Assembly: GCA_027618995.1 (NCBI GenBank)
Contig: JAQCGO010000005.1
Location: 20,772 to 84,771, forward strand
Length of the DNA: 64,000 bases
Source: Pseudomonadota bacterium
Lineage (GTDB): Bacteria; Pseudomonadota; Gammaproteobacteria; Steroidobacterales; Woeseiaceae
Direction: 5' to 3'
The position numbers and the translations under genes are program-made. Below the pieces are notes generated by a model, which was not told the DNA's origin, did not search any database, and worked only from the letters and a program-made list of their open reading frames with translations. This document shows positions 6,195 through 42,480 of the stretch, piece by piece. Numbering within the stretch: position 1 is the stretch's first letter; every line of letters starts with the position of its first letter.

Positions 6195-7152
6195 GAAAAA
6201 GGCGAGCGATAAAGCGGCAGATCAGGGTGGGTTTCTGCAACGCCTGCGCGCGCGACTGAACAGGGGTGACAACTGGCTAAGCTATGACCTGGCGAATCTG
6301 GCGCCGGCGGGAAAGATCGATGAGGACGTGCTGGAGGAGCTCGAATCGCTCCTGATCATGGCCGATGTCGGCGTCCAAACCACGACCACAATTATCGCGG
6401 ACTTGCAGGCGAGCCTGGCACGTAAGGAATTAAAGGACATGGCTGCGCTGCAGCAGGGATTGCGCCGCTCACTGCTGGCCATCCTCGAACCCGTTGCAGA
6501 GCCATTACTCATTGAGAAAACCGACGGCCCTTTCGTGATCCTCATGATCGGCGTCAATGGTGCCGGCAAGACGACCACGATCGGCAAGCTGGCGAAACGA
6601 TTTAGCGATCAGGGGCTGTCGGTGATGCTCGCTGCCGGCGATACGTTTCGGGCAGCCGCCGTCGAACAGTTACAGGCCTGGGGTGAGCGCAATGCGGTGC
6701 CGGTCATTGCACAGCACGCGGGCGCCGATCCGGCGGCGGTTATTTTTGATGCCTGCGAGGCCGCTCGGGCACGCGGCGTCGATGTGCTGCTCGCAGACAC
6801 AGCGGGGCGCTTGCAGAACCAGCAGGGTCTGATGGATGAACTGGTCAAGATCAAACGCGTGGCTGCGCGGCGCGATGCCGGCGCACCACACGAGGTCATG
6901 CTGGTGCTGGATGCGAGCCAGGGACAGAATGCCCTGACCCAAGCCGAGAAGTTTCACGCCGCGCTCGGGATCACAGGCATCACCGTTACCAAGCTGGACG
7001 GCAGCGCCAAGGGTGGCATCCTGCTTGCCATAGCGCATCAGCTGCGCGTGCCGGTGCGCTTTATCGGTATCGGCGAGTCAGCCGAGGATTTGCAACCGTT
7101 CAACGCGGCGGAATTTGTCGACGCGCTGTTGCAGCGCAGCGAAACACGATGA
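6172..7152 (+). CDS. ftsY: Signal recognition particle receptor FtsY
   Basis: GVNGAGKTTTIGKLA, AAGDTFRAAAVEQL, DTAGRLQNQ, TKLDGSAKGG. Confidence 0.98.
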   Translation: MLKMFANKKKASDKAADQGGFLQRLRARLNRGDNWLSYDLANLAPAGKIDEDVLEELESLLIMADVGVQTTTTIIADLQASLARKELKDMAALQQGLRRSLLAILEPVAEPLLIEKTDGPFVILMIGVNGAGKTTTIGKLAKRFSDQGLSVMLAAGDTFRAAAVEQLQAWGERNAVPVIAQHAGADPAAVIFDACEAARARGVDVLLADTAGRLQNQQGLMDELVKIKRVAARRDAGAPHEVMLVLDASQGQNALTQAEKFHAALGITGITVTKLDGSAKGGILLAIAHQLRVPVRFIGIGESAEDLQPFNAAEFVDALLQRSETR

Positions 7153-7832
7153 TCCGGTTTGAAGAAGTTACCAAACGGTTCCCGGGCGGGCAGGAGGCAC
7201 TGTCAGGCCTGAGCCTGACGATCGACAAAGGCGAAATGGTGTTCGTCACCGGTCACTCCGGCGCAGGTAAAAGCACCTTGTTGCGGCTTATTGCGTTGAT
7301 CGAGCGACCGACCAGCGGCCAGGTCATTGTCGATGGCCAGAATACACATCGTGTAAAGCGCAGGAAGATTCCGGCGTACCGGCGCCAGATCGGCATGGTG
7401 TTTCAGGACCACAAACTGCTTTACGACCGGCCCGTGTTCGACAACGTCGCGTTGCCGCTGGTGATTGCGGGGATGGGATTTCGCGAAGCAGGTCGGCGCG
7501 TCAGGCCGGCGCTCGAGCAAGTAGGATTGTTGCATAAGGAGAAGCGGAATCCCGCGACTTTGTCCGCCGGTGAACAACAGCGTGTCGGTATCGCTCGCGC
7601 CATCGTGTCGCGGCCGAAGCTGCTGATCGCCGACGAGCCGACCGGCAATTTGGATCCTGACCTGTCATTGGAAGTGATGCGTATCTTTCGCCGCTTTAAC
7701 GAAGTCGGCGTTACGGTCCTGATAGCAAGTCACGACATAGTGTTAATCGACAAGCTTGGTTGCCGCCGCATCGAACTCGACGGCGGCAGGATGGCCGCGG
7801 CGCCAGTCGAGGATCCGGAGCTGTCGGAATGA
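7149..7832 (+). CDS. ftsE: Cell division ATP-binding protein FtsE
   Basis: Walker A GHSGAGKST, LSAGEQQRVGIARAIV, DEPTGNLDP; overlaps ftsY and ftsX. Confidence 0.97.
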   Translation: MIRFEEVTKRFPGGQEALSGLSLTIDKGEMVFVTGHSGAGKSTLLRLIALIERPTSGQVIVDGQNTHRVKRRKIPAYRRQIGMVFQDHKLLYDRPVFDNVALPLVIAGMGFREAGRRVRPALEQVGLLHKEKRNPATLSAGEQQRVGIARAIVSRPKLLIADEPTGNLDPDLSLEVMRIFRRFNEVGVTVLIASHDIVLIDKLGCRRIELDGGRMAAAPVEDPELSE

Positions 7833-8740
7833 TGAACTGGTTGCTACGGCATGCGAGCACCTCGGCCAGTTCGCTCGGCCGGCTGTTTCGGCAGCCGTTT
7901 GCGAGCCTGATGATTGTTCTCGTCATTGCCGTAACGCTTGCGATTCCCGCGTCGCTGAACCTGGTCGTCAAGACAGCGCAGTCCGTAAGTTCCGGATGGG
8001 ACAGTGCGCTCGACTTTTCCTTGTATCTGCGACGAAATATCGCCGAGGCCGACGCCGCAAACCTCCGAGATCTTATCGCGCAGCGTGCTGACGTCGCTTC
8101 GGTGCAGCTGATTACTGCAAGTGCAGCTCTGGCTGAATTCAAGGCACAGTCGGGATTCGGCGCCGCACTCGATCAGCTGAGCGAGAATCCGCTGCCGCAC
8201 ACGCTGGTCGTACGACCGAGCGCCACCAGCACGAGCCAGTCGATCATCCTGTTGCAGGAAGAGCTCGCTAACCTGCCGGAAGCGGATGCCGTTCAGGCCG
8301 ACACTGAATGGGTACAACGCTTTCATGCAATTCTCGACATATTGCGTCGCGCGATCGTGATCGGCGGGTCGCTGCTCGGCGTCGCTATCGTCGTTATCAT
8401 CGGCAACACCATCCGGCTCGACATCCAGAACCGGCGGGAAGAGATAGAGGTGACCAAGTTGATCGGCGCAAGCAACGCGTTCGTCCGCCGGCCTTTCCTC
8501 TGGTCCGGTATCTGGTACGGTTTATTCGGTGGTCTGCTGGCGGTAGGTCTTGTGTACTACGGACTTTATCTGCTCGCGCCATCGGTGAGCAGGCTGGCGG
8601 GCCTGTATCAGAGCGGTGTCGCGGTGACGGGCCTGGTGGCCGGGGAGGCACTGTTGGTCGTTGGCATTGGCATGGCGCTCGGGCTGATTGGCTCGTGGTT
8701 CGCCGCGGCCCGGCATATGCGTCGGATCGAGCCTCGCTAG
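7829..8740 (+). CDS. ftsX: Cell division permease FtsX
   Basis: ATGA overlap with ftsE; MMNWLLRHASTSASSLGRLFRQPFASLMI; four predicted TM segments; FtsX context. Confidence 0.94.
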   Translation: MMNWLLRHASTSASSLGRLFRQPFASLMIVLVIAVTLAIPASLNLVVKTAQSVSSGWDSALDFSLYLRRNIAEADAANLRDLIAQRADVASVQLITASAALAEFKAQSGFGAALDQLSENPLPHTLVVRPSATSTSQSIILLQEELANLPEADAVQADTEWVQRFHAILDILRRAIVIGGSLLGVAIVVIIGNTIRLDIQNRREEIEVTKLIGASNAFVRRPFLWSGIWYGLFGGLLAVGLVYYGLYLLAPSVSRLAGLYQSGVAVTGLVAGEALLVVGIGMALGLIGSWFAAARHMRRIEPR

Positions 8741-8836
8741 AGCCTGATATGACATAATCCAGCTGAATCTTTGGCTCTCAAGTCATTGTTTCAAAACACT
8801 ATTTCTCACCCCAAAGTGTGGAACTTCGACCGATTA

Positions 8837-8863
8837 TTAGCACTCTAAGGCAACGAGTGCTAA
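8837..8863. promoter_or_regulatory. CIRCE element (HrcA operator) upstream of rpoH
   Basis: Exact TTAGCACTC-TAAGGCAAC-GAGTGCTAA, a perfect 9-9-9 CIRCE consensus, ending 25 nt before the rpoH ATG. Confidence 0.93.
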
Positions 8864-8888
8864 AATTCCGCCGCACAGGAGGACACCG

Positions 8889-9749
8889 ATGACAACAGCA
8901 GTAGCCACATTGAATCGCGATCTCGCGCTGGCCGGACCGGTCGGCAGTCTCGATGCGTACATCCAGGCCGTTGGCGCCATACCGATGCTGAGCAAAGAGG
9001 ACGAGCAGGCTTTGTCGCGCCGCTTCAATGAGCACGAGGATCTTGATGCCGCGCGTGATCTGGTCATGGTGCACCTGCGTTTCGTGGTGCACATCGCCAA
9101 GGGTTACACCGGGTATGGACTGCCAATCGGCGACCTCATCCAGGAAGGTAACGTCGGTTTGCTGAAAGCGGTCAAGCGTTTCGATCCGGACTACGGCGTA
9201 CGACTGGTGTCTTTCGCGGTGCACTGGATCCGTGCCGAGATTCATGAGTTCGTACTCAAAAACTGGCGCATCGTCAAAGTTGCGACGACCAAGGCGCAGC
9301 GCAAACTGTTTTTCAATTTGCGCAAGAATAAGAAAAGTCTTGCCTGGTTGTCGCACGCCGAGACGCTTGCCGTTGCGGACGATCTTGGCGTAAGCCCGCA
9401 GGAAGTCACCGAGATGGAGCGACGTTTAAGCGCTCGTGATGCCATCTTCGATCCCGCGCCCGACGCAGACGACGATCACTTGTATACGCCGGCAGCCTAC
9501 CTGTCGAGTCCGAATTCAGATCCGGCCGACCTGCTCGAAAAATCCGACTGGCACGATGACGCAAGCGAAAAAATGACGGTTGCGATGCAGGATCTGGATG
9601 AGCGCAGCCAGGATATCCTGCAGAACCGCTGGCTGTCGGAAACGAAGATGACGCTGCATGAACTGGCTGACAAGTATGGTGTGTCTGCCGAGCGCGTTCG
9701 TCAGCTTGAAGCAAACGCGATCAAGAAGCTTCGCACTGCAATAGTCTGA
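8889..9749 (+). CDS. rpoH: RNA polymerase heat-shock sigma factor sigma32
   Basis: [40 protein letters not shown]-like region 2 and [13 protein letters not shown] RpoH box; SD AGGAGG at 8878. Confidence 0.97.
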
Positions 9750-41845: not shown

Positions 41846-42480
41846 TACCGGTAGTCTCCCAAATTCTCCCGCAGCGTATGTACAGCGCGGGAATAATGCG
41901 TCTTGACGCTGCCGTCTGAGCAACCCATCGCAACCGCGGTCGCTGCAACATCGAGTCCCTCGAACGTACGCAGCATGAACGCCTCGCGCTGTCGCCCGGG
42001 CAGTTCCCGCACCGCGCGCTCGAGTCTCTGCATTGTCTCACTACTTTGCAGTTGCTCGTCCGGCGTCCTGCCGGCGGGATCGGGCGCCTCGGCAATCGGA
42101 TCATAGTCATCGTCGGTACCGCCACGCCCGAACCACGTCATGACACGATTGCGTACCTTCGCGCGTCGGTGCCAATCGCGGATTCCGTTCTGCAATCTGC
42201 GGTAAAACAGCGGCATCCATTCGGTTTCCGCTCTGCTCGCATAGTTGTTCACCAACTTGATCATCGCTTCCTGCACCAGGTCGAGTGCTTCGTCACGATC
42301 GCGGATCGCTATCTCTGCGATACGCAATGCCCGACGCTCGATGCCGGCAAGAAACTGATTGAGTTGCCTTTCGCGCTGCAGTGTACTCGCCCCGGTTGAT
42401 GGTTCGCGGATGCACGATACCGCAAAAACGCCCGGTCCGGCGCCCGGCAAACTCCTGACTTCAGCCACGGCAAGATCCAT
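41845..42480 (-). CDS. Sigma-70 family RNA polymerase sigma factor (ECF-like)
   Basis: RDEALDLVQEAMIKLVNNY; LPGRQREAFMLRTFEGLDVAATAVAMGCSDGSVKTHYSRAVHTLRE. Confidence 0.93.
   Translation of the reverse strand: MDLAVAEVRSLPGAGPGVFAVSCIREPSTGASTLQRERQLNQFLAGIERRALRIAEIAIRDRDEALDLVQEAMIKLVNNYASRAETEWMPLFYRRLQNGIRDWHRRAKVRNRVMTWFGRGGTDDDYDPIAEAPDPAGRTPDEQLQSSETMQRLERAVRELPGRQREAFMLRTFEGLDVAATAVAMGCSDGSVKTHYSRAVHTLRENLGDYR

Follow-up and report, generated by a model that had tools for sequence, protein, structure and literature searches.

The inverted repeat at positions 8837–8863, in the leader of the heat-shock sigma factor gene rpoH, is probably a genuine HrcA operator that controls this gene. 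It appears to be laid over two promoters, one of the sigmaE and one of the sigma70 type, and bound HrcA would block polymerase at both. The association of CIRCE with rpoH is class-wide, extending beyond one lineage, and is found, to judge from the leader sequences, in most of the sampled gammaproteobacterial families that possess HrcA.

A perfect CIRCE between ftsX and rpoH

Within the stretch of DNA analysed (64,000 nucleotides; hereafter the window), positions 8837–8863 read TTAGCACTC-TAAGGCAAC-GAGTGCTAA. This is a CIRCE element, the predicted operator of HrcA, and is not assigned to a strand. The earlier note on this DNA had described a perfect CIRCE with the exact 9-nt spacer, and the description holds, since 18/18 arm positions agree with the consensus. 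A pattern scan of the window returned no other match, even at up to three mismatches. The origin of the repeat as a chance palindrome was ruled out: no CIRCE match appeared in 100 dinucleotide-preserving shuffles of the window, and none of 387 shuffled rpoH leaders matched CIRCE as well (at most 3.5 mismatch units).

Protein family matches bear out the placement of the site between ftsX (7832–8740, plus strand; TIGR00439, 329.3 bits, cut-off 255) and rpoH, encoding sigma-32 (8889–9749, plus strand; TIGR02392, 399.6 bits, cut-off 323.1). The order of genes 5' of rpoH is ftsY, ftsE (7149–7832, plus strand; TIGR02673, 284.6 bits, cut-off 264.85) and ftsX. CIRCE ends 25 nt before the ATG, as had been stated, but its distance from the Shine-Dalgarno sequence of rpoH, AGGAGG (8877–8882, plus strand, as read from the sequence), is 13 nt and not the 15 nt given earlier. 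The window also holds a gene for an ECF-type sigma factor (41863–42336, minus strand), with a weak match to TIGR02939 (E 2.8e-9, below the cut-off).

The host is a marine gammaproteobacterium represented by a Woeseiaceae-like uncultured MAG (2.54-Mb assembly, 97% complete), and among named sequences those that match its RpoH best come from MAGs labelled Woeseiaceae or unclassified Gammaproteobacteria. The earlier note had suggested a search for hrcA and for other CIRCE sites, holding that a genome lacking hrcA would speak against an operator. A complete hrcA is present in the genome (TIGR00331, 328 bits, cut-off 197), so this objection falls away. Its product has the DNA-binding and C-terminal domains, with matches to PF01628 and PF03444, and a grpE-like ORF follows the gene. 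A genome-wide scan found exactly two perfect CIRCE sites, the second of them upstream of groESL, where a sigma-32-type promoter, CTTGAAA-N12-CCCCTAT, stands immediately before the operator (L001, 1473–1498). A third match (L003), with 2 mismatches, has one of its arms broken, and none of the genes next to it was recognised as a heat-shock gene. Autoregulation of hrcA through CIRCE was rejected for this genome, as the scan gave no site near hrcA.

Conservation of the operator and its co-occurrence with HrcA

The palindrome is also kept upstream of rpoH in relatives, where its absence had been named as a further argument against HrcA control. Collection by protein similarity gave 110 rpoH loci, 86 of them in a Woeseiaceae-like set that reduced to 61 distinct leaders. 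All 61 have perfect CIRCE arms, with a spacer of N9 in 60 and of N8 in one. The spacer and the flanks drift among these leaders, and their variability beside invariant arms points to strong purifying selection on the operator. The distance from CIRCE to the ATG is 24–31 nt in Woeseiaceae and 90–170 nt in Kangiellaceae.

Two departures from the single canonical operator were seen among the collected leaders. In Aliikangiella/Kangiellaceae (L097, L098, L102, L111) there are two tandem CIRCE-like repeats some 5 nt apart and 90–170 nt from the ATG, one of them perfect or nearly so and the other with a mismatch. In Luteimonas (L106, L107) the operator is a symmetric variant, TCAGCAGTC-N9-GACTGCTA(A/T), in which a change in one arm is matched by that of the paired base in the other, and this possibly reflects an altered HrcA specificity.

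The wider survey took one genome per family across the GTDB Gammaproteobacteria, a class that takes in the former Betaproteobacteria. It covered 140 genomes, in which 129 rpoH leaders were read and the same genomes were searched for HrcA; CIRCE was called present at up to 3.5 mismatch units. The site was found upstream of rpoH in 89/97 genomes with HrcA and in 5/32 without it (Fisher p=6.7e-16, a value that overstates independence because families share descent, although the contrast remains large). It is thus missing in 8/97 HrcA-positive and in 27/32 HrcA-negative families. At the family level, arm positions 4–9 and 19–24 are 89–100% conserved.

The five HrcA-negative genomes that have CIRCE at rpoH fall into two kinds. 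Two (G139 and G176) hold another CIRCE elsewhere, which suggests that hrcA was missed and may be absent from the assembly. The other three (G073, G169 and G123) are without any other CIRCE, suggesting a recent loss of HrcA. Their rpoH leaders (L211, L164 and L192) carry a decaying CIRCE, with no hrcA detected. Outside the class, 29 families of other Pseudomonadota were represented by one rpoH copy each; one leader has a 3-mismatch site and another a 4-mismatch site, and with 2/29 families an origin of the arrangement outside Gammaproteobacteria is not supported.

A predicted sigmaE promoter overlapping CIRCE

The sigmaE (RpoE) consensus consists of GGAACTT and TCNNA elements placed 15–17 nt apart. 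The rpoH leader of the host fits both the elements and the spacing, with a predicted -35, GGAACTT, at 8820–8826 and a predicted -10, TCTAA, at 8844–8848, both on the plus strand and separated by 17 nt. The -10 overlaps the left arm and spacer of CIRCE, and the operator would thus lie over part of a putative sigmaE promoter, GGAACTT-N17-TCTAA.

Conservation specific to rpoH was assessed by aligning 94 family-level sites, with the groESL leaders from 30 of the same genomes as a control. Three features outside the arms are conserved in the rpoH sites: GGAACTT, located upstream by some 16 nt; T..A in positions 1–3 of the spacer; and NAT following the right arm. GAAC at -15/-16 is found in 61/94 rpoH and 0/30 groESL sites, the -35 element being absent from groESL leaders, and A at the third spacer position in 71/94 and 3/30, respectively (p=1.4e-10). 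The groESL CIRCEs have the same arms but a promoter of the CTTGA...CCCCTAT type, as expected for sigma-32. Since the rpoH-only columns are absent there, the extra conservation belongs to rpoH promoters and not to HrcA recognition.

The upstream element also follows the distribution of RpoE, scored as present when a TIGR02939 match exceeds its cut-off. Among rpoH leaders with CIRCE, the GAAC box occurs in 64/83 from genomes with RpoE and 0/11 from genomes without it (p=7.9e-7); in the remaining 19/83 it is not at the expected place. The host has an RpoE orthologue (290 bits, cut-off 236), and GAACTT-N16-TCTAT lies upstream of its gene. Across the host genome the strict sigmaE pattern shows no enrichment, with 6 matches against 9 for a reversed control, and the case for sigmaE therefore rests on the comparative data. 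Another strict match (L285) lies in front of an ORF whose start resembles a signal peptide.

A probable sigma70-type promoter within CIRCE, and alternative readings of the repeat

Sigma70 promoters place their -35 and -10 hexamers 16–18 nt apart. A consensus scan of 8700–8900 gave a single plus-strand sigma70 candidate, TTAGCA-18-TAAAAT with TG, whose hexamers coincide with the CIRCE arms. The possible -35, TTAGCA (8837–8842, plus strand), is a weak element in the left arm, matching at only 4/6 positions (9/12 for the pair), and the predicted extended -10, TAAAAT preceded by TGC (8861–8866, plus strand), lies at the right end. The T at +3 after CIRCE is found in 83/94 rpoH and 4/30 groESL sites (p=3.7e-14), and this T of the NAT extension is kept in 10/11 leaders from genomes without RpoE, as expected of a -10 that is independent of sigmaE. 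TTAGCA-N18-TAAAAT is probably a sigma70 promoter, with the arms of the operator serving as its hexamers. A left-arm G3 variant (TTGGCACTC), considered as a sign of selection on the -35, was dropped (28/94 rpoH against 6/30 groESL sites, p=0.35). Because the -35 sits on bases fixed by CIRCE, its conservation is inseparable from HrcA binding, and this, with the poor match of the hexamer and a CIRCE-to-ATG distance that varies between Woeseiaceae and Kangiellaceae, leaves some room for a different account. CIRCE might bind HrcA while rpoH has here just one promoter, either that of sigmaE or another lying further upstream, TAAAAT reflecting no more than a preference in the initial transcribed region. 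We regard this as rather unlikely, given the retention of NAT both in leaders lacking RpoE and overall, its rarity at groESL, and the TGn that precedes it.

The repeat might instead work chiefly at the RNA level: a 9-bp stem is predicted when transcription begins upstream of CIRCE, and the earlier note had proposed that the palindrome, as a 5' UTR hairpin, could work like a thermometer. A leader hairpin governing translation or mRNA stability as the chief function nevertheless seems most improbable. The predicted starts, near 8855 for sigmaE and 8873 for sigma70, fall inside and after CIRCE and exclude its left arm from the RNA, so that the hairpin would form only in read-through from upstream. 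The Shine-Dalgarno sequence stays outside it, whether the leader is folded with or without the left arm, and an Rfam search of the leader found no family match. Moreover, the arms of the 61 near-relative leaders are invariant in sequence, beyond what mere pairing would demand, and the presence of CIRCE tracks HrcA across the class. This last relationship also bears on the idea of a relic, a former HrcA operator now retained solely for the promoter elements that its bases provide. The arms do overlap the sigmaE and sigma70 elements, and a similar sequence persists in the three genomes that seem to have lost HrcA recently, yet the site has gone from most HrcA-negative families and is kept by those bearing hrcA. 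In addition, the highly conserved arm positions 4–9 and 19–24 lie mostly beyond what the consensus of the hexamers needs. We consider a relic very improbable, and favour an HrcA operator in current use, superimposed on both promoters.

Discussion

Permina and Gelfand reportedly surveyed the same regulons in the same bacteria in 2003, and their survey may already list rpoH sites. In our literature search, whose scope left out that survey and most subscription journals, the only report of CIRCE at rpoH elsewhere was that of Rodionov et al. (2004, PMC545781), and no account of a class-wide CIRCE-rpoH pattern or of a superposition of sigmaE promoter and CIRCE came up. Table 8 of that paper lists a predicted HrcA site at position -51 upstream of rpoH in Geobacter sulfurreducens, a perfect TTAGCACTC-N9-GAGTGCTAA as in the host. 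As far as the table goes, the case is that of one delta-proteobacterial species, with neither an overlap with sigmaE or sigma70 promoters nor a class-wide pattern described. The groESL operon of Caulobacter crescentus shares the operator, the repressor and GroE as the proposed sensor (PMC8119881). There the target is a chaperone operon whose promoter is thought to be used by sigma-73 and sigma-32, whereas in the host it is a sigma factor gene with predicted sigmaE-type and sigma70-type promoters.

The activity of HrcA depends on GroE in Caulobacter (PMC8119881), and free GroE is on this basis likely to be the sensor in the host too. From the sites themselves, how far they are conserved and how they co-occur with hrcA and rpoE, we infer the following scheme of binding, repression, promoter activity and chaperonin sensing. 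Free GroE chaperonin would keep HrcA folded and bound to CIRCE, and thereby both forms of polymerase off the rpoH promoters. Bound HrcA would cover the -10 and start of the sigmaE promoter and the entire core of the sigma70 promoter, making exclusion of polymerase the simplest mode of repression. When unfolded protein occupies GroE, HrcA would become inactive and sigma70 transcription of rpoH would be released; envelope stress in addition would let sigmaE add to the output. More sigma-32 should then raise groESL expression, through a sigma-32-type promoter that has a CIRCE of its own, and the extra GroE could reactivate HrcA and close the loop.

Heat-shock control is usually drawn either as repression through HrcA and CIRCE or as control by sigma-32, the latter modelled on E. 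coli. In most of the sampled HrcA-positive gammaproteobacterial families the two systems look to be wired in series, a link that is absent from E. coli, and the envelope-stress input through sigmaE would enter at the same DNA element as HrcA. Upstream of rpoH, E. coli K-12 shares sigmaE-type elements with the host, GAACTT-N16-TCTGA as read here, which we take to be the sigmaE-dependent promoter P3. It has no CIRCE there (the best match has 8 mismatches), and the HrcA search applied to the other genomes found no HrcA in this control genome. In E. coli, regulation of the gene relies largely on an RNA thermometer and on chaperone control of the protein.

The breadth of the arrangement across the class inclines us, somewhat, to the view that rpoH of Gammaproteobacteria was ancestrally controlled through an HrcA operator over a sigmaE/sigma70 double promoter, with cytoplasmic folding stress, by way of GroE and HrcA, and envelope stress, by way of sigmaE, converging on a single element of 47 bp. 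In that case the state of E. coli, a sigmaE promoter and no CIRCE, would be derived, having arisen after the loss of HrcA. The arrangement thus suggests how rpoH was governed in the relatives of E. coli before HrcA was lost. It also leads to the prediction that, in many gammaproteobacteria, mutation of hrcA would derepress the sigma-32 regulon, beyond groESL.
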